Program-made: the position numbers and the translations under genes
The notes under the pieces: generated by a model
Told to the model about the DNA's origin: nothing
The model's database searches: none
The model's input: the letters and a program-made list of their open reading frames with translations, nothing else
Part shown: piece after piece, positions 21,925 through 30,272 of the stretch
How the letters are laid out: each line of letters begins with the position of its first letter
Numbering within the stretch: position 1 is the stretch's first letter
Assembly (NCBI GenBank): GCA_947258515.1
Contig: CAMYIO010000026.1
Span: 1 to 36,739, forward strand
Direction of reading: 5' to 3'
DNA from: an uncultured Ectothiorhodospiraceae bacterium
GTDB lineage: Bacteria > Pseudomonadota > Gammaproteobacteria > UBA9214
DNA: 36,739 nt

Positions 21925-22977
21925 TTAATAATCAATGTCAAGATCAAGCTCTGGTGTTTCCTCGTAACCCTTGACGGCGGCAACCGCCTGCGCCCAGCGG
22001 GGATCGTGATGCAGCATGTTCAGATTGAGCGGCTTGCGCCCGTGCATGCGCATCATGCGGGTGTGCGCGATGGGATTCTGGTAATCACCGAGTGTCTCCG
22101 CAACACAGCCCGCCTGTTCACGATTATTGCACACCAGCACCATGTCGCAGCCGGCCTCCAGTGCGGCCTGCGCGCGCGCGCTATGATCGCCGATACAGGC
22201 GGCGCCCTCCATGCTCAGGTCATCGCTGAAGACCAGGCCGTTAAAGCCGAGTTGCTCACGCAATATGGTCTTGATCCAGTAACGTGAAAAGCTTGCCGGT
22301 TGTTTATCAACGGCAGAATACACCACATGCGCCATCATGATGGCCGCCAGGCCGGCATCGATCATGCGCCTGAAGGGCACCATGTCCCACAGGGCCATAT
22401 CTTCAAAGCGGCGCTCATCAATCGGCAAGGCAACGTGCGAATCTGCAGCGACGGCACCATGGCCCGGAAAGTGTTTGCCGGTGGCGGCCATGCCGGCATC
22501 GTGCATTCCCGCTTGATAGGCCAGCGCCAGTTCCGCAACGACTTCGGGACGTTTATGCAGGGCGCGGTTACCGATGATGGAAGAGACACCGAACTCAAGA
22601 TCAAGCACCGGAGCAAAACTGAGATCGATACCGACGGCACGCAGCTCGGATGCCATCAGCCAGCCGCTGACACGGGCAAGATGCCGGGCACGGCCCGTAT
22701 CCGTGTCATGTATTTTGCCGAGACAGGCCAGTGGAGGAAGATGGGTAAACTCATCCCTGAAGCGCTGTACCCGTCCACCCTCCTGGTCGACTGCAACCAG
22801 CAGGTGTGGGTCACGCAGGCGGTGCAGTTCATCTACGAGAGCGCCGAGCTGCCCGATCGATGCGTAATTGCGGCTAAACAGGATGACGCCCCCGACGGCC
22901 GGGTGCCGCAGCAAGGCCCGGTCCTCGTCGGTGAGTTCCAGGCCATCGATATCCGCCATCAGGGGTCCAAGTGTCAT
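21925..22977 (-). CDS. nagZ: Beta-N-acetylhexosaminidase NagZ
   Basis: This 350-residue cytoplasmic family 3 glycoside hydrolase removes N-acetylglucosamine from anhydromuropeptides in peptidoglycan recycling. NagZ signatures are all present: 'VAVDQEGGRVQRF', 'SFAPVLDLEFG', 'IGNRALHKRPEVV', 'ATGKHFPGHGAVAADSHVALP' with the catalytic His of the mobile loop, and 'VFSDDLSMEGA' holding the nucleophile Asp. The length is normal. The Shine-Dalgarno sequence is weak. It is the first gene of a leftward group with hpt and the methylthioinosine phosphorylase, matching the Pseudomonas neighbourhood. The region upstream is the long non-coding stretch shared with the signalling operon. Confidence 0.95.
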   Translation of the reverse strand: MTLGPLMADIDGLELTDEDRALLRHPAVGGVILFSRNYASIGQLGALVDELHRLRDPHLLVAVDQEGGRVQRFRDEFTHLPPLACLGKIHDTDTGRARHLARVSGWLMASELRAVGIDLSFAPVLDLEFGVSSIIGNRALHKRPEVVAELALAYQAGMHDAGMAATGKHFPGHGAVAADSHVALPIDERRFEDMALWDMVPFRRMIDAGLAAIMMAHVVYSAVDKQPASFSRYWIKTILREQLGFNGLVFSDDLSMEGAACIGDHSARAQAALEAGCDMVLVCNNREQAGCVAETLGDYQNPIAHTRMMRMHGRKPLNLNMLHHDPRWAQAVAAVKGYEETPELDLDIDY

Positions 22978-23059
22978 GCTGTTATGTTGCCCTTACTTAA
23001 TGAGTAAAAAGGTTGATATATATGATGTAGCCAATTGAATAATAGAAAATATCAAGTCC

Positions 23060-23330
23060 CATGTAGTCCGCTATCGCGTGCCCGGGTTTCGCCTCGAATA
23101 TATCCAGAGGGGCATCCAGCAGGCAAGCCTGAGCGGGGCGAAAGTCCGTACATCCCGATGCGGCGACCACGCCTGGTGCCAGGATGCCGGATCGGGATTA
23201 TACCTGCGTATCCGCAAGGGTGATGCAAAGGTCGGGGTGAGCCGGCACCCTCAGCATGGCAAAACCCGAGTCATCACCCCTGGCGACTACCCTACCCGCA
23301 AACATCGACCCCCTTCCGGTGGAAGGCAGC
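23060..23330. other. GC-rich, hairpin-dense non-coding region of unknown function
   Basis: The 451 bases between nagZ and the MBL-fold gene contain no convincing gene. Three foldable elements stand out. First, ATCCCGATGCGGC (23152-23164) pairs with GCCGGATCGGGAT (23186-23198) with one mismatch, with CCTGG-TG-CCAGG inside. Second, GGGTGATG (23219-23226) pairs with CATCACCC further on, enclosing TCGGG/CCCGA and GGGTG-AGCCGG-CACCC. Third, CCTTCC-GGT-GGAAGG lies at 23312-23326. Its flanks are AT-rich. It does not match any riboswitch consensus I know. It may be a structured RNA, a leader, a regulator-binding region or the remains of a mobile repeat. The strand is undecided. Confidence 0.4.
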
Positions 23331-23373
23331 TTTCACATGGAAAATGAAGTCAACCCTGTTACTGTATAAACCA

Positions 23374-23421
23374 TCTACAATCATAACAATGACTTTTATA
23401 TTCAATCAGTAAGGGGGGGGG
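23374..23421 (+). promoter_or_regulatory. Putative promoter and nine-G Shine-Dalgarno tract of the signalling operon
   Basis: TCTACA (23374-23379) and TATATT (23397-23402) are spaced by 17 bases and match the sigma-70 boxes at four and five of six positions, with a start near 23409. A run of nine G residues at 23413-23421 follows AA and ends seven bases before the ATG, serving as the ribosome binding site. If the promoter is right the leader is about 20 bases and the structured region upstream is not part of this transcript. The promoter call is weak; the G tract is certain. Confidence 0.4.
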
Positions 23422-23428
23422 ATTGATA

Positions 23429-24322
23429 ATGAAAATAACATTTTACGGTGTGCGCGGTTCAATCCCTTCCCCGGGATATGATACTTACCGCTACGGTGGC
23501 AATACTTCCTGTGTACACATTGAAACAGCCAGCGGTCAGGACCTGGTACTGGATTGCGGAACGGGCATCAGGAATCTGGGCAAGCGACTGATAGAGAAAA
23601 ACAACACAATCAACATCCTGTTGTCCCATGGACACTGGGACCACATCCAGGGCTATCCGTTCTTTATGCCCATCTACCAGCCGGATAGACAAATCCATGT
23701 TTATACAAGTGCAGCAGAGGGTCACGAGCAAATCTGCGCGCTGTTTGAGCAGATTGACGGTGCCAACTTTCCGGTGAAAGCAACTGAATTGCCATCCCGA
23801 TCAGAATGCATAACAGAAAACTTCGAGGCCGGACTGGCCAGGCAGAACATTTGCGTCAGGCGTATACCAATCAATCACCCGGGTGGCGGTTACGGCTACC
23901 GCATCGAGGATGATGGAGCGTCCTGTGCATTCATTACTGACAATGAACTTGAACCACCGGGGAAGCTGTCTACAACATACGATCAATGGGTAGAGTTCTG
24001 CCGCGGTGCTGATGTCCTGATCCATGACGCCCAGTACCTGGAATCTGACATGCCCCACAAGCACGGCTGGGGACATTCACTGGTATCACAGGTGCGGCAA
24101 CTCGCACTCGATGCCGAGGTTGGGTGTCTGGCCATGTTCCACCATGATCCTGACAGAACGGATACCGAGATTGATTTCATCCAGAAAGACAATGAGCACT
24201 ATTTTTATGGTCAGCGTGCCCCGTCAATCAGTCTCTGCGCTGCCGAGGGTATGCAAATAAAACTCACACCCCAACAGAACAAAAACTCGGTTATTGAAGT
24301 TGGCAAGGTATCATCCGGATGA
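23429..24322 (+). CDS. MBL-fold metallohydrolase
   Basis: This 297-residue cytoplasmic metallo-beta-lactamase-fold hydrolase starts 'MKITFYGVRGSIPSPG', then 'YRYGGNTSCVHIE', the pattern of the PhnP/COG1235-like group. The two-metal site is complete: HGHWDH at residues 67-72, a His in 'PINHPGGGYGYRI', the bridging Asp in 'CAFITDNE' or 'VLIHDAQY', and His in 'AMFHHDPDRTD'. The group contains phosphodiesterases for cyclic nucleotides or related small molecules, but the substrate is unknown. ATG at 23429 was chosen over the in-frame TTG at 23423 because of the G-tract spacing. It is the first gene of a signalling operon, 88 bases before the sensor kinase. Confidence 0.87.
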   Translation: MKITFYGVRGSIPSPGYDTYRYGGNTSCVHIETASGQDLVLDCGTGIRNLGKRLIEKNNTINILLSHGHWDHIQGYPFFMPIYQPDRQIHVYTSAAEGHEQICALFEQIDGANFPVKATELPSRSECITENFEAGLARQNICVRRIPINHPGGGYGYRIEDDGASCAFITDNELEPPGKLSTTYDQWVEFCRGADVLIHDAQYLESDMPHKHGWGHSLVSQVRQLALDAEVGCLAMFHHDPDRTDTEIDFIQKDNEHYFYGQRAPSISLCAAEGMQIKLTPQQNKNSVIEVGKVSSG

Positions 24323-24410
24323 TGTGTTCATCTGTAAATCGCCTGCTCTTCACCGGTTGCTCCTGTGTATGTGTGGTCAGACTCCCTGAAGCAGCGGCAG
24401 TGATCATCGC

Positions 24411-27400
24411 GTGAAGAATTACACCTCGATACTGATTGTCTGTACGTTGATCCTGGTTGGCTTTTTCCTGTCCTGGTACGTGGACAGGAGCTACGAAAGC
24501 TACTACGAAAGTCAACAAGTCCTGGCGCAACACTCGACGCGGGGCGTGGCAAGGATCATTAAACTCTATATCAATGAGGTCCGCCGGCGTGTTGATTTAT
24601 TTGCCGAGGAAGAAGGCGACGTTATAAGCAAGCTGTCGCGGAACCCTGCGGATGCAGAAATGCACGAACAGTTCACGAACCGGGTTAAACGACATTTTCC
24701 CGATTTATTTGCCTATACCATAACTAACAGTCTCGGCGAGGTGCTGCTGGACGATTTCGAGGGAAAAGTCGCCAACCTGTGCCAGACAGACATTCATCAA
24801 TTTGCCGCCGGGGAAGATCAAAAGGTTTTCATCCATCCCAACCCGGTTGGCTATCACTTTGACATTATGGCCACCTGGAAGAACCTCGCTGGAGACCAGG
24901 GGGTTTTCTTCATCAGCATCAACCCGAAGGTGTTGGCGCGCATCCTCGCCAACAGCCAGCTGCACGACCATGAACTGATACTGCTGCACAGGGAAAAGCC
25001 CGGCTTGATTGAAATCACAGCCGATGGCACACGTGCCGACTTGCAGGGTAAAACCAGCCTGGATCCGGAGGAAATGGCGCGCATCGGTTTTACGGCCCCA
25101 GTCAAGGGCAGCCTGTGGACACTTGCCGATTTGCCTGCCGCCAACCTGTTCAGCGCGCACAAAAAGCTGCTATGGCGCCGTGCAGTCTCAATCTTCCTCG
25201 TGTTTCTGCTGTTCAGCGGTGTCATGGCCGTGCTGATCAGGCGGGCAGAGCTGCGGCGCGGCAAGGCCGAACAGGCGGTGCGTGAATCCCGCAGCCAGCT
25301 TGAAAAACGTGTAGCCAGCCGCACCCAGCAATTATCGATCACCAATACCCAGCTGGAATCCGAGATACACGACCGCCAGCGGGCGGAGCGGGCACTCAAA
25401 CACGAAATCAACGAGCGCAGGCAAACCGGGGACACACTGCGTGCACTGCATGAAATTACCTCGGCGCAGAAGCTGCCGTTTCATGACAAGGTCAAGGCAC
25501 TGCTGGAAAATGGCTGTCAGCAGTTCAAGCTGCCGATCGGGATACTCGCGCACATCGAGGGTGACCGCTACGAGGTCGTTCAGTCCATCTCACCCGATGA
25601 ATCCATTGTCCCGGGCACAGTATTCGAGCTTGGCAATACCTATTGTCGTGAAACGCTCAGGGCCGACGGCCCCGTCGGCTTTGAGCATGCCGCGCACTCA
25701 GACTGGAAGAACCACCCCTGCTACCAGGCGTTCAAGCTGGAGACCTACCTCGGGATACCGGTGATCGCGGGTAGCAAGGCCTATGGAACCCTCAACTTTT
25801 CCAGCCCTGCGCCACGTAAGGAGCGCTTTACCACCACCGACGTGGAAATCCTGCGGATGATGGGCCAGTGGCTCGGTAGCGAAATCTACCGCCAGCAGAC
25901 TGAACAGGCCTACAAGCAGGAAAGAAACAAGGTACAGCGCTATCTCGATGTCGCCGGCGTCATTATGCTGGTTGTTGGCGCCGATCAACGGGTCAGCATG
26001 ATCAACAGGAAGGGCTGCGAACTGTTGGGCGGATCGGAACAGGACATCATCGGCAAGAACTGGTTTGACAATTACATACCCGCCGCTGACAGGGAAGATA
26101 TCAAAAAGTTCTTTGTGAAAATTATGGCGAATGAAGGTGAGCTCATCGAGTACTACCAGAATCCGGTGGTCACCCGCAGTGGCGAGGAACGGCTGATTGC
26201 CTGGCACAACACCCTGCTGTACGACGATGCAGGTAACATAACCGCATCACTGAGTTCCGGTGAGGACATCACGTTACAACAGCAGGCGCAGGAACAACTC
26301 CGACAAAGCGAGGAACAACTGCGCCTGACGCTTGAAAATGCACCCATTGGCATACTGACATCCGGACTGGACGGCCGCCTGCTCAGTGTTAACCCGGCCT
26401 TCTGCAATATTCTCGGCTACAGCGCCGCAGAACTCATCCACCTGTCCGTCGAGGACATCACCCACCCCGATGACTGGAAGGAAACCAGGACAAGGTTTCA
26501 GGCACTGGTGAGTGGTGACATCGACAGCTACGAGCTGGAGAAACGCTATCTCCGCCGCGATGGTTCCGTCATCACCGGGCGTGCGCGCGCTGGCCTGGTG
26601 CGGGATGCGCAGGGCAAGCCACTGATGGTCGTTGGAGAGGTCGAGGATATTACCCAGCGCGAACGCACCGAGAAGATGTTCCAGCGGGTTGTCGAGTCGG
26701 CTCCCAATGCCATCGTCATGATGAATTCGGAAAGCCGGATTGTGCTGGTGAATTCACAGACGGAAAAATACTTCGGCTACCGGCGGGAGGAGTTGCTTGG
26801 CAAGCCCATCGAGGTCCTGATACCCGAGCGTCTGCGCGAAAACCATCCGGTTTACGTCGAGAGCTTCAAGTCCGAGCAGCGCGCCCGTCCCATGGGTCTC
26901 GGGCGCAACCTGTTCGGCCTGCGCAAGGATGGCAGCGAGTTTCCCATCGAGGTCGGCCTCAGTCCGGTTGAAACGGGCCAGGAACTGCTCATCCTGAGTG
27001 CCATTGTCGACATCTCCGAGCGGGTTCGCAGCGACCGGGAATTGCAGCGCATGCGCACCTATCTCAAGAACATCATCGATTCCATGCCATCGGTACTCGT
27101 CGGGGTGGACAAACAAGGCCGGGTCACCGAATGGAACCAGAGTGCCGAGAAGGCCACCGGTGTTCAAAACGATAAGGCAATCGGGCAACCATTCAGACAG
27201 CTGTTCCCGGAACTCGAATCCCAACTCGACAATATCAGTGAGGCAATTCGCACCCATACCCCGATGCGAACGGAACGCCTGATTACAGAGAAGAACGGAG
27301 AACCACGCTATGCTGACGTCATGGTCTACCCGTTGCTGGCAAACGGCTCTGCCGGCGCCGTGATCCGGGTTGATGACATCACCAGCCGCGTGCGTATCGA

Positions 27401-28205
27401 ACAGATGATGGTACAGACGGAAAAGATGATGTCCGTCGGCGGACTTGCCGCCGGGATGGCGCACGAGATCAACAACCCGCTGAGCGGCGTGCTGCAAAGC
27501 TGCCAGAATATCCAGCGCCGACTCTCGCCCGACCTGGAACCCAATCAGCGTACCGCCGAGGCGCTGGGTGTTGACCTTGAACGGGTGTACCGCTATCTGG
27601 ATGCGCGTGGCATCATCGATTTCGTGAATGCCATCCAGCAGTCCGCCAGCCGCGCCAGCCATATCGTGGCCGACATGCTGGCCTACAGTCGCAGTACCAG
27701 TACCGACTTTCAGACGGCGCGTGTCGAGGAAATGCTGGATACCGTGGTACGTCTGGCCGCCAGCGACTATGATCTGAAGAAGAAGTACGATTTCAAACAA
27801 GTTGAGATCGTACGCGATTTTGACCCGGAACTTGACACCCTGATTTGCGACCACACGGAAATAGAACAAGTGTTGCTCAACCTGATCAAGAATGCTGCCC
27901 AGGCCATGTCCGATGGCGGCACTCCCCTGCCACACCGCATCACCCTGCGTACCCGCAGGGAGGATGGATTCGGACGCATCGAGGTAGAGGATAATGGACC
28001 CGGCATGGACGTACAGACGCAGCGCCGGGTATTCGAACCGTTCTTCACCACCAAAACGGTGGGAGTGGGAACCGGGCTTGGCCTCTCCGTGTCCTATTTT
28101 ATTATTACCGAGCAACACAAAGGCACCATAGACGTTACCTCGAACCCCGGAGAAGGCACCTGTTTTACCGTCCGCCTGCCGTTGCACGGGAAGCCCGACA
28201 AGTGA
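24411..28205 (+). CDS. Membrane sensor histidine kinase with GAF and four PAS domains
   Basis: This 1264-residue kinase has the following order. TM1 is at about 7-25 and a periplasmic sensor-like region runs over 26-250, with the second membrane segment 'AVSIFLVFLLFSGVMAVLI' at about 261-280. A coiled coil (285-340) and a GAF domain (about 341-497) follow, then PAS domains near 507-627, 637-755, 757-880 and 880-998. The dimerisation domain has phospho-acceptor His1018 in 'GMAHEINNPLSG', and the ATPase domain has the N-box 'NLIKNAAQAM', G1 'DNGPGMD' and G2 'GTGLGLSVS'. About 30 extra residues lie between the two dimerisation helices. There is no fused receiver. The GTG start lacks a clear Shine-Dalgarno sequence. 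Its stop overlaps the next gene's GTG, so its direct partner is probably the encoded receiver. Confidence 0.93.
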   Translation: MKNYTSILIVCTLILVGFFLSWYVDRSYESYYESQQVLAQHSTRGVARIIKLYINEVRRRVDLFAEEEGDVISKLSRNPADAEMHEQFTNRVKRHFPDLFAYTITNSLGEVLLDDFEGKVANLCQTDIHQFAAGEDQKVFIHPNPVGYHFDIMATWKNLAGDQGVFFISINPKVLARILANSQLHDHELILLHREKPGLIEITADGTRADLQGKTSLDPEEMARIGFTAPVKGSLWTLADLPAANLFSAHKKLLWRRAVSIFLVFLLFSGVMAVLIRRAELRRGKAEQAVRESRSQLEKRVASRTQQLSITNTQLESEIHDRQRAERALKHEINERRQTGDTLRALHEITSAQKLPFHDKVKALLENGCQQFKLPIGILAHIEGDRYEVVQSISPDESIVPGTVFELGNTYCRETLRADGPVGFEHAAHSDWKNHPCYQAFKLETYLGIPVIAGSKAYGTLNFSSPAPRKERFTTTDVEILRMMGQWLGSEIYRQQTEQAYKQERNKVQRYLDVAGVIMLVVGADQRVSMINRKGCELLGGSEQDIIGKNWFDNYIPAADREDIKKFFVKIMANEGELIEYYQNPVVTRSGEERLIAWHNTLLYDDAGNITASLSSGEDITLQQQAQEQLRQSEEQLRLTLENAPIGILTSGLDGRLLSVNPAFCNILGYSAAELIHLSVEDITHPDDWKETRTRFQALVSGDIDSYELEKRYLRRDGSVITGRARAGLVRDAQGKPLMVVGEVEDITQRERTEKMFQRVVESAPNAIVMMNSESRIVLVNSQTEKYFGYRREELLGKPIEVLIPERLRENHPVYVESFKSEQRARPMGLGRNLFGLRKDGSEFPIEVGLSPVETGQELLILSAIVDISERVRSDRELQRMRTYLKNIIDSMPSVLVGVDKQGRVTEWNQSAEKATGVQNDKAIGQPFRQLFPELESQLDNISEAIRTHTPMRTERLITEKNGEPRYADVMVYPLLANGSAGAVIRVDDITSRVRIEQMMVQTEKMMSVGGLAAGMAHEINNPLSGVLQSCQNIQRRLSPDLEPNQRTAEALGVDLERVYRYLDARGIIDFVNAIQQSASRASHIVADMLAYSRSTSTDFQTARVEEMLDTVVRLAASDYDLKKKYDFKQVEIVRDFDPELDTLICDHTEIEQVLLNLIKNAAQAMSDGGTPLPHRITLRTRREDGFGRIEVEDNGPGMDVQTQRRVFEPFFTTKTVGVGTGLGLSVSYFIITEQHKGTIDVTSNPGEGTCFTVRLPLHGKPDK

Positions 28206-28582
28206 GTCCGCGGGTCCTGGTCGTGGATGACGAACCGTTCATCGTCACTGGACTACGGACCTTTCTGGAGGATGAAGGCATGCACGTAGACAGCGCAGGC
28301 TCCGGGGAAGAGGCCGTGGACATCGTGCGCAATGATTCCGGCATCGATGTATGCATCATGGACATGCGGCTGCCCGGCATGAATGGCGATACCACCATTC
28401 GCACCCTTTATGAAATTTGCCCGGATTTGAGGTTCATAATCCATACCGGATCGGCGGACTACAGCATCCCGGATGATCTGCGCGCCATAGGAATTGATGA
28501 ACGGCAGTTGTTCGCCAAACCGCTGCTGGACATGATGCCGCTGGCGGAAACCGTAGCCGCGCTGGCGGGCGGCAGGGACTAG
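28202..28582 (+). CDS. Stand-alone response regulator receiver
   Basis: This 126-residue single-domain receiver has the acidic pocket Asp9-Asp10 ('VVDDEP'), phospho-acceptor Asp54 ('CIMDMRLPG'), a conserved Thr in 'IHTGS' and Lys in 'FAKPL'. No output domain is present. The GTG start overlaps the kinase stop in GTGA, which implies translational coupling and a matched amount of both proteins. It could pass phosphate on, compete with the next protein for the kinase, or act as a sink. Only three bases separate it from the receiver-phosphatase gene. Confidence 0.93.
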   Translation: MSPRVLVVDDEPFIVTGLRTFLEDEGMHVDSAGSGEEAVDIVRNDSGIDVCIMDMRLPGMNGDTTIRTLYEICPDLRFIIHTGSADYSIPDDLRAIGIDERQLFAKPLLDMMPLAETVAALAGGRD

Positions 28583-28585
28583 CGT

Positions 28586-29785
28586 ATGAACACCGTGATG
28601 ACCACACCGGCCAGGATCCTCACCATCGAGGACGAACCGCCGATCCGTGACGGCATTGTTGCCTACCTCGAGGACAGCGGCTTTACCATGCTGCAGGCCA
28701 GTGATGGTCCCAGCGGCATCGACATCTTCCGCCAGGAGCACCCGGATGTCGTGTTATGCGACCTGCGCTTGCCGGGCATGGACGGGCTGGAAGTCCTGTC
28801 CACCATCACCGCCGAATCCCCGGAAACGCCGGTGATCGTGGTCTCGGGCGTCAGCCTGCTCAGTTACGCCGTACAGGCGCTGAAGCGCGGCGCCTGGGAC
28901 TATGTGACAAAACCCATCCAGGATATGGCCGTGCTGGAAAGCGCCATACGCCGGGTAATCGAGCATGCAGGGTTATTGCGCCAGAACCGGGAATACCGTG
29001 AACACCTGGAAACGCTGAACCGGGAGCTGACCCTGACCCTGGAGCAACTCCAGGACGACGAGGAAGCCGGGCGCAAGATCCAGTTCCAGTTACTGCCGGA
29101 AGACAACACGTGCTTCGGCAACTACACCTTCCAGCGGCGCCTGTATCCGTCCATGTATCTCAGCGGGGACTTTATCGACTACTTCCGCATCGATGACCGG
29201 CATATCGGCTTCTACATGGCGGATGTATCCGGTCATGGTGCGGCCTCGGCATTCGTGACCGTGATGCTCAGAACACTGGTGATCCAGTATCGAGATGCGT
29301 TATGGCAGTCGGGTGACGATACCATTCGGCACCCGCAGCAAACCCTGCAGCGCCTTAACCGTGATGTGTGCCGCCAGAATCTGGACAAGCACCTTACCCT
29401 GTTCTACGGGGTTATCGACCTGGAGGAGAACACCCTGTGCTACAGCAACGGCGGGCAATTTCCCTATCCGCTACTGTCCGACGGGCGTGAGGTCCGGACA
29501 CTCGAATGCCCGGGGCGGCCGCTCGGGCTGTTTGAGGAAGCGGAATTCAGGATCTGGCAGAGCGACCTGCCGCGGGAATGCGTGCTGCTACTGGTATCCG
29601 ACGGGATTCTGGAACTGATACCCGAAGATACCATGCTGGAAAGATACAACGCCCTGCTCACGGCGACCCACGGGATGGATCTGGATCTGGATGAGATGAC
29701 GGTCGGCCTCGATGTCCTGGCGGACAAGCATCTGCCGGATGATATTGCCTTCCTGGTAATCAGCGGGCGCCGCGGCGATGGATAA
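28586..29785 (+). CDS. Response regulator with PP2C/SpoIIE-type phosphatase output
   Basis: This 399-residue protein has a receiver at 10-125 (acidic residues in 'IEDEPPI', phospho-acceptor Asp59 in 'VLCDLRLPGMDG', Lys in 'YVTKPIQDM'). A coiled coil follows at about 127-165, then a PP2C/RsbU-like phosphatase to the end. Metal-binding acidic residues are visible in 'SGDFIDYF' near 193 and 'ADVSGHGAASAFV' near 213, with 'DDIAFLVI' at the C terminus. Such proteins dephosphorylate a STAS antagonist, here most likely the product of the next gene, which overlaps by eight bases. The related Pseudomonas HsbR and Shewanella CrsR carry an extra serine-kinase domain; this one stops after PP2C. Confidence 0.92.
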   Translation: MNTVMTTPARILTIEDEPPIRDGIVAYLEDSGFTMLQASDGPSGIDIFRQEHPDVVLCDLRLPGMDGLEVLSTITAESPETPVIVVSGVSLLSYAVQALKRGAWDYVTKPIQDMAVLESAIRRVIEHAGLLRQNREYREHLETLNRELTLTLEQLQDDEEAGRKIQFQLLPEDNTCFGNYTFQRRLYPSMYLSGDFIDYFRIDDRHIGFYMADVSGHGAASAFVTVMLRTLVIQYRDALWQSGDDTIRHPQQTLQRLNRDVCRQNLDKHLTLFYGVIDLEENTLCYSNGGQFPYPLLSDGREVRTLECPGRPLGLFEEAEFRIWQSDLPRECVLLLVSDGILELIPEDTMLERYNALLTATHGMDLDLDEMTVGLDVLADKHLPDDIAFLVISGRRGDG

Positions 29786-30272
29786 CGGCAACGTCCTGCA
29801 TGCCAGCCACGATGGCGTTCATGTGCTGCGTTTTATCGGGGATATCCGCTATACCCTGAGTCCCTCCATCGACCGCTTCCTGGAAGGGATTTTTGCCGGA
29901 CCGAAACCGGCAGGTTTTGTCATCGACCTCACAGAAACCGACAGTATTGACAGCACCAATCTCGGCCTGCTCGCCCGTATCGCCAAGCGGATGCAGACAC
30001 TCCACGCCCCGCGAGTTACCGTCGTGTCGAACCGCGCAGCCATCAATTCCGTACTGACCAGCATGGCCCTGGATGAAGTCTTTGATATCGTCGAGGATAC
30101 CGGTCTGGAGACAGGTGTATCAAAGGAGGTGCCACAGGAGCACGCCGACAGGGAGACCCTGGCGCGTACCCTGGTTAATTCACACCGTGCTCTGATGGAC
30201 CTCAACGAGCACAACAGGGAGATGTTCCAGGACGTGGTCGCTTCCCTGGAGAAGAAGGGTCACAGTGGCTAA
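29778..30272 (+). CDS. STAS-domain anti-sigma factor antagonist-like protein
   Basis: This 164-residue protein has a STAS domain over about residues 5-110, with 'GFVIDLTETDSIDSTNLGLLARIAKRM' holding the likely phosphorylated Ser59 in 'DSTNLG'. A C-terminal helical extension of about 50 residues is rich in charged residues and ends '...ASLEKKGHSG'. In partner switching, a serine kinase phosphorylates this Ser and a PP2C enzyme removes the phosphate; the dephosphorylated form binds the kinase or another target. The start codon lies inside the end of the phosphatase gene, so the two are coupled. The target (an anti-sigma kinase, a cyclase or a flagellar regulator) is not in this window. Confidence 0.9.
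   Translation: MDNGNVLHASHDGVHVLRFIGDIRYTLSPSIDRFLEGIFAGPKPAGFVIDLTETDSIDSTNLGLLARIAKRMQTLHAPRVTVVSNRAAINSVLTSMALDEVFDIVEDTGLETGVSKEVPQEHADRETLARTLVNSHRALMDLNEHNREMFQDVVASLEKKGHSG

Follow-up and report, generated by a model that had tools for sequence, protein, structure and literature searches.

Nine consecutive G residues as a probable, slip-tolerant Shine-Dalgarno site of an MBL-fold hydrolase gene in an uncultured gammaproteobacterium

The window analysed here, a stretch of 36,739 nucleotides from the draft genome of an uncultured Ectothiorhodospiraceae bacterium (assembly GCA_947258515.1, contig CAMYIO010000026.1), encodes on its forward strand an MBL-fold metallo-hydrolase of 297 codons, counted from the ATG (23429..24322; PF12706, 55.3 bits, cut-off 27). 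The match to ribonuclease Z falls far short of the curated cut-off (69.9 bits versus 252), and the hydrolase is filed as MBL-fold (PF12706) only. The N-terminus MKITFYGVRGSIPSPG from the ATG at 23429 is common to the genus orthologues; the TTG at 23423, given as the start in the open reading frame list, lies one base after the G tract and was rejected, as the shared N-terminus begins at the ATG. The tract itself occupies positions 23413..23421 of the forward strand and is followed by the seven nucleotides ATTGATA and the ATG at 23429-23431, an arrangement described in an earlier note on this DNA and confirmed by direct reading. A pattern match at 23402-23426 places an inverted repeat around it, with the left arm TCAATC at 23402..23407 and the right arm GATTGA at 23421..23426 (both forward strand), the first G of the right arm being the last G of the tract. 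Further upstream, leader alignment points to a possible promoter (CTGTAT, 17 nt, AACAAT; 23362..23390, forward strand), which aligns with TTGTAT/TTGTAG ... CATAAT in genus relatives; a rival consensus match, TCTACA-17-TATATT, is found at 23374-23402. Downstream of the hydrolase, on the same strand, lie a PAS/GAF histidine kinase (24411..28205; Pfam) and, at 28202..30272, genes for a receiver protein, an RssB-like receiver-SpoIIE phosphatase and an RssC-like STAS protein (Pfam, NCBIfam).

A scan of the window for G or C runs of at least six bases and A or T runs of at least seven returned four runs in all, namely this tract, two G6 and one C6, which bears out the observation that no other homopolymer in the window is as long as the nine-G tract. 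In 200 simulations, windows with at least one G/C run of nine or more amounted to 22% under an order-1 Markov model, 5.5% under order 2 and 3.5% under order 3; with the tract omitted from training the values were 27% (order 1) and 1% (order 3). Since this chance depends on the null model (1% to 27%), the tract ranges from unremarkable to mildly unusual. The organism's own genome (G000) holds 31 distinct G runs of at least eight bases, nine of which reach at least nine (44 overlapping matches to the eight-G pattern). A mononucleotide null predicts 211 and 60 such runs, respectively, and the order-3 window model, scaled to genome length by hand arithmetic, roughly 9-15 and 1-3. What is notable about the run is its placement at a start site, not the run as such. 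No reading frame of at least 80 codons crosses the tract, and a role in joining two reading frames was rejected on this ground. An assembly error, by which a true tract that is shorter, longer or interrupted was collapsed in the MAG consensus, might be suspected in a draft of 269 contigs, homopolymers being error-prone; however, the tract lies inside a contig of 45,937 bases, far from contig ends, and short reads usually resolve nine Gs. We regard such an error as extremely unlikely.

The computed pairing agrees well with the proposal that the G run serves the MBL-fold gene as its ribosome-binding site. Against the 16S 3′ tail, for which the standard sequence was assumed from general knowledge, the best-pairing register is TAAGGGGG (23410..23417, forward strand; ViennaRNA duplexfold), one G-U pair included. 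Its energy of -11.7 kcal/mol is the strongest among nine gene starts compared within the window, and the tract forms the core of this site. Eleven bases separate the 8-mer from the ATG, and the aligned registers lie 4 to 12 nt from the ATG, within Shine-Dalgarno spacing. A 16S gene was not found in the organism's own draft genome; one of the 23 family genomes, that of a genus relative (G003), includes an exact match to the usual 16S end.

It had also been proposed that slippage of the tract may switch expression of the gene. In this scenario the locus would be a phase-variable contingency locus, in which changes in G-tract length alter the strength or spacing of the Shine-Dalgarno site and turn the hydrolase, and perhaps the following genes, on and off. 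The computed best duplex, though, stays at -11.7 kcal/mol for 6 to 12 Gs because the run pairs in several registers, and it weakens only with fewer Gs (-11.2 kcal/mol for five, -8.3 for four and -5.2 for three). For nine Gs an ungapped scan yields five registers between -8.2 and -9.9 kcal/mol, so that a slip would leave near-equal registers at near-equal spacing; a one-base slip shifts the spacing by one, and other registers of near-equal computed energy remain. The computed local fold is -8.4 with seven Gs, -8.0 with nine and -6.8 with eleven. Tract length thus has little computed effect on pairing. The mismatch-repair genes are intact as well: mutS and mutL of the own genome both score above cut-off and are free of internal stops, so nothing points to an unusual rate of slippage.

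Comparison within the genus points in the same direction. Among the 13 genus genomes, own included, the hydrolase has orthologues at 77-87% identity in four relatives, and the leader is available for three of these, the contig of the fourth (G004) starting within the gene. The own leader reads CAATC-AGTAA-G9-ATTGATA, compared with CAATC-ACTAA-GGGGATG-ATTGATA in G003, CAATC-ACTGA-GGGAATG-ATTGAGA in G001 and CAATC-GTCGG-GGGGCTG-ATTGAAA in G010. The aligned block thus comprises nine bases here and seven in each of the three relatives, all of them interrupted, with longest G runs in the leaders of 4 (G003), 3 (G001) and 6 (G010), and the computed Shine-Dalgarno pairing in the three relatives is weaker (-8.2, -6.1 and -9.4 kcal/mol). 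The interrupted seven-base blocks suggest that the expansion to nine Gs took place in this lineage. Over the final 30 bases of 60 other leaders from named genomes, the three genus relatives included, the longest G run was 1-3 in 54 cases, 4 in three, and 5, 6 and 8 in one each; 20 of the 80 loci (L034, L090-L104, L107-L110) were left out of this count, their start being missing or the locus more distant. The single run of at least seven among the 60 is a G8 in Thiothrix sp. HyVt-477 (L088, upstream of 1615), whose end is separated by 14 bases from the ATG of a homologue of 44% identity; it is distant and best seen as independent. A tract kept at the same gene in relatives with varying length, as a phase-variable locus would show, was not found in these leaders.

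G tracts before start codons were also surveyed across the 23 family genomes. The pattern G8-N4..10-ATG occurs at 64 places and C8-N4..10-ATG at 59; selection for G tracts at start sites in the family was rejected, given the similar number for the C-run control. A reversed-pattern control was lower for both (35 versus 64 for G runs, 38 versus 59 for C runs) and, being lower for C runs too, mainly reflects word frequency, ATG versus GTA. Merging overlaps and identical flanks and discarding tracts whose full run was followed by fewer than four bases reduced the 64 places to 54 distinct G tracts, ten of which were picked by eye as likely gene starts and scanned with Pfam. Seven of the ten precede recognised genes that are unrelated to one another: MtrB/PioB, PEP synthase-like, COX1, histidine kinase, multihaem cytochrome, LysR regulator and HypC. 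Among these ten scanned tracts, no recognised gene with a start-site tract of at least eight Gs was seen in two species. The sole recurrence at a possible start concerns two species of one genus (G016:C40 and G020:C15; L145, L171), which share a 32-codon frame preceded, at a distance of five bases, by a G8 of unchanged length.

Of the 31 runs of at least eight Gs in the own genome, a mechanical test puts 22 inside some open frame of at least 80 codons and two at the start of a long gene: the hydrolase tract and a G8 separated by five bases from the ATG of a 517-codon frame, an MtrB/PioB outer-membrane gene (G000:C199, L138). A further G9 (G000:C56:21728-21736, L130) is located seven bases before a 52-codon frame near a contig end and was not counted among the start-site tracts; it adjoins C, T and A runs and may be an assembly edge. 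An intergenic tract is G10 in one genus member (L193, G001:C195) and G8 in another (L196, G006:C318), in surroundings that are 97% identical with 17 gaps in 2172 aligned bases; Rfam gave no match on these two loci.

Several of these observations speak in favour of phase variation or against the preferred reading. The G10/G8 difference in 97% identical surroundings shows that such tracts do change length, the order 2-3 nulls make the hydrolase tract mildly unusual, and the second gene of the own genome with a G8 before its ATG (MtrB/PioB) counts against the reading of the tract as a plain Shine-Dalgarno site. A cut-off of at least seven is used for poly-G tracts in Campylobacter, by which an uninterrupted tract of nine is within the phase-variable range and long enough to slip, and poly-G tracts of at least eight are capable of switching in C. 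jejuni (PMC6321876). In the 5′ UTR of espR of M. tuberculosis, G-tract indels change translation, a single G insertion raising it (PMC11898584). On the other side, the three genus relatives with a leader do not share the tract, the computed pairing is insensitive to length between 6 and 12 Gs, mismatch repair appears intact, and, among the scanned ones, no other start-site tract of at least eight Gs was seen at one recognised gene in two species. Moreover, a Campylobacter study expects quantitative rather than ON/OFF effects of simple sequence repeats in Shine-Dalgarno contexts (PMC13317227). A literature search requiring all terms together returned no paper on homopolymer switches that operate via ribosome binding and spacing. 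With the computed pairing constant and the uninterrupted tract absent from the three genus orthologues, the suggested switch of expression is not supported, and we consider it quite improbable.

The espR case indicates that a graded effect of G-tract length is possible in general. The tract could act as a graded, slippage-driven tuner of translation, in which the loop of a putative hairpin conserved in the genus has become a mutable homopolymer in this lineage, its length sets loop size and spacing, and cells of a population differ in the amount of hydrolase; for the locus described here, this appears very improbable.

The inverted repeat deserves separate consideration. Both arms are invariant, with all six pairs kept, in four of four genus leaders, while the region from -75 to -1 before the ATG is only 66-71% identical among them; the loop measures 13 bases here and 11 in the three relatives. 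Such a repeat occurs in four of four genus leaders versus two of 57 other leaders, against a background of 3.1% of window 35-mers and 0.7-4.0% in shuffled leaders. These data may suggest a regulated leader, in which the repeat forms a hairpin or a protein-binding site (RNA or DNA) that controls translation or transcription of the hydrolase, the G tract merely being its loop. Fold z-scores of the four genus leaders (-2.17, -2.61, -0.62 and -1.60) support a predicted hairpin in part, the leader at -0.62 folding no better than its shuffles. The pairs never vary; hence, there is no covariation evidence, and a DNA-binding site is equally possible. The repeat was furthermore noticed after the fact, its stem has only 6-7 bp, and it is seen neither in five orthologue leaders outside the genus nor in 55 of the 57 non-genus leaders. 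The repeat pattern is present at 30 places in the 23 genomes, close to a uniform-base estimate of 24 (hand arithmetic), and within the genus only the hydrolase leader could be recognised as a repeated occurrence at the same gene; the reversed pattern occurs at one place, but contains rare words. As just four of the 30 places are the hydrolase leader, the repeat was rejected as the mark of a regulon. Taken together, we judge a regulated leader unlikely. The conserved inverted repeat around the Shine-Dalgarno site is nevertheless a new detail and a small testable lead.

The earlier note had further placed the nine Gs at the head of a signalling operon, for which we find no support: the hydrolase stands beside the kinase, receiver, RssB-like or RssC-like genes in none of 40 related loci. 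In this test, the window neighbours (nagZ, kinase, receiver, RssB-like, RssC-like and DppC-like genes) gave no match at 1e-15 in 40 of the 80 loci (L031-L068, L088, L089), which cover up to 7 kb on each side, many being shorter than 15 kb; a positive control run on the window worked. At 1e-4 only seven weak, generic matches appeared, at 26-37% identity. G014 carries a cluster of the kinase, receiver, RssB-like (71%) and RssC-like (59%) genes that lacks the hydrolase, whose gene is located on another contig. The order of this cluster is that of the own genome, and its kinase is in two pieces (53% and 66%); a contig of G015 carries RssB-like and RssC-like genes, stopping short of the kinase. Synteny thus places the kinase outside the hydrolase unit. 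The downstream genes are RssB/RssC-like only: the NCBIfam models for RssB and RssC of Pseudomonas match over full length but below their curated cut-offs (388 bits versus 700 and 129 versus 250). The hydrolase stop and the kinase start are 88 nt apart, and the computed Shine-Dalgarno pairing of the kinase is weak (-2.3). No terminator-like site was found in 22900-24800, so read-through from the hydrolase into the kinase is possible. Membership of the hydrolase in the downstream signalling operon is doubtful.

Based on this dataset, we hypothesize that the nine Gs, which lie in the loop of an inverted repeat, are a strong Shine-Dalgarno site for an MBL-fold hydrolase gene that is transcribed separately, and that the site expanded in this lineage and tolerates slippage; we consider this explanation probable. 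It builds directly on sequence, position, comparison and computed pairing. The site would be an ordinary strong Shine-Dalgarno sequence with a lineage-specific G expansion, presumably used as such by the ribosome and presented in the loop that the short TCAATC / GATTGA repeat of the 5′ leader would form if it folds into a hairpin in vivo. An ancestral seven-base G-rich block, resembling those of the sisters (GGGGATG, GGGAATG, GGGGCTG), would have been converted into nine uninterrupted Gs by substitution and a two-base gain. The leader may have tolerated this expansion, since a G can pair with either C or U in the anti-Shine-Dalgarno sequence and several registers are available; length changes would then be close to neutral. 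The hydrolase would form its own transcription unit, separate from the kinase and the RssB/RssC-like genes.

If the switch were real, it would represent a contingency locus acting via Shine-Dalgarno pairing in a non-pathogenic environmental gammaproteobacterium. The present case calls for caution in this respect, as a G homopolymer in a Shine-Dalgarno site is explicable by wobble pairing and register redundancy. Hence, phase variation should not be inferred from such a homopolymer without length variation in reads.

Three known systems are suitable for comparison. With an ordinary Shine-Dalgarno site of the AAGGAGG type, the tract shares complementarity to the 16S 3′ end, the usual distance to the ATG and strong computed pairing; it differs in that its core is a G homopolymer using a G-U pair, with several registers being nearly equivalent. 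The poly-G contingency loci of Campylobacter have an uninterrupted nine-G tract in common with the locus described here; most of their tracts fall within reading frames, are found repeatedly at the same genes and differ from genome to genome (PMC6321876). Unlike these loci, the present tract lies in a leader, and in one species of the genus (one genome per species). The 5′ UTR of espR in M. tuberculosis likewise carries a G homopolymer in an untranslated leader, whose length can alter leader folding, and this tract is located 144 bp upstream of espR (PMC11898584), whereas here the tract is the putative Shine-Dalgarno site itself and the computed effect of a single base is small.
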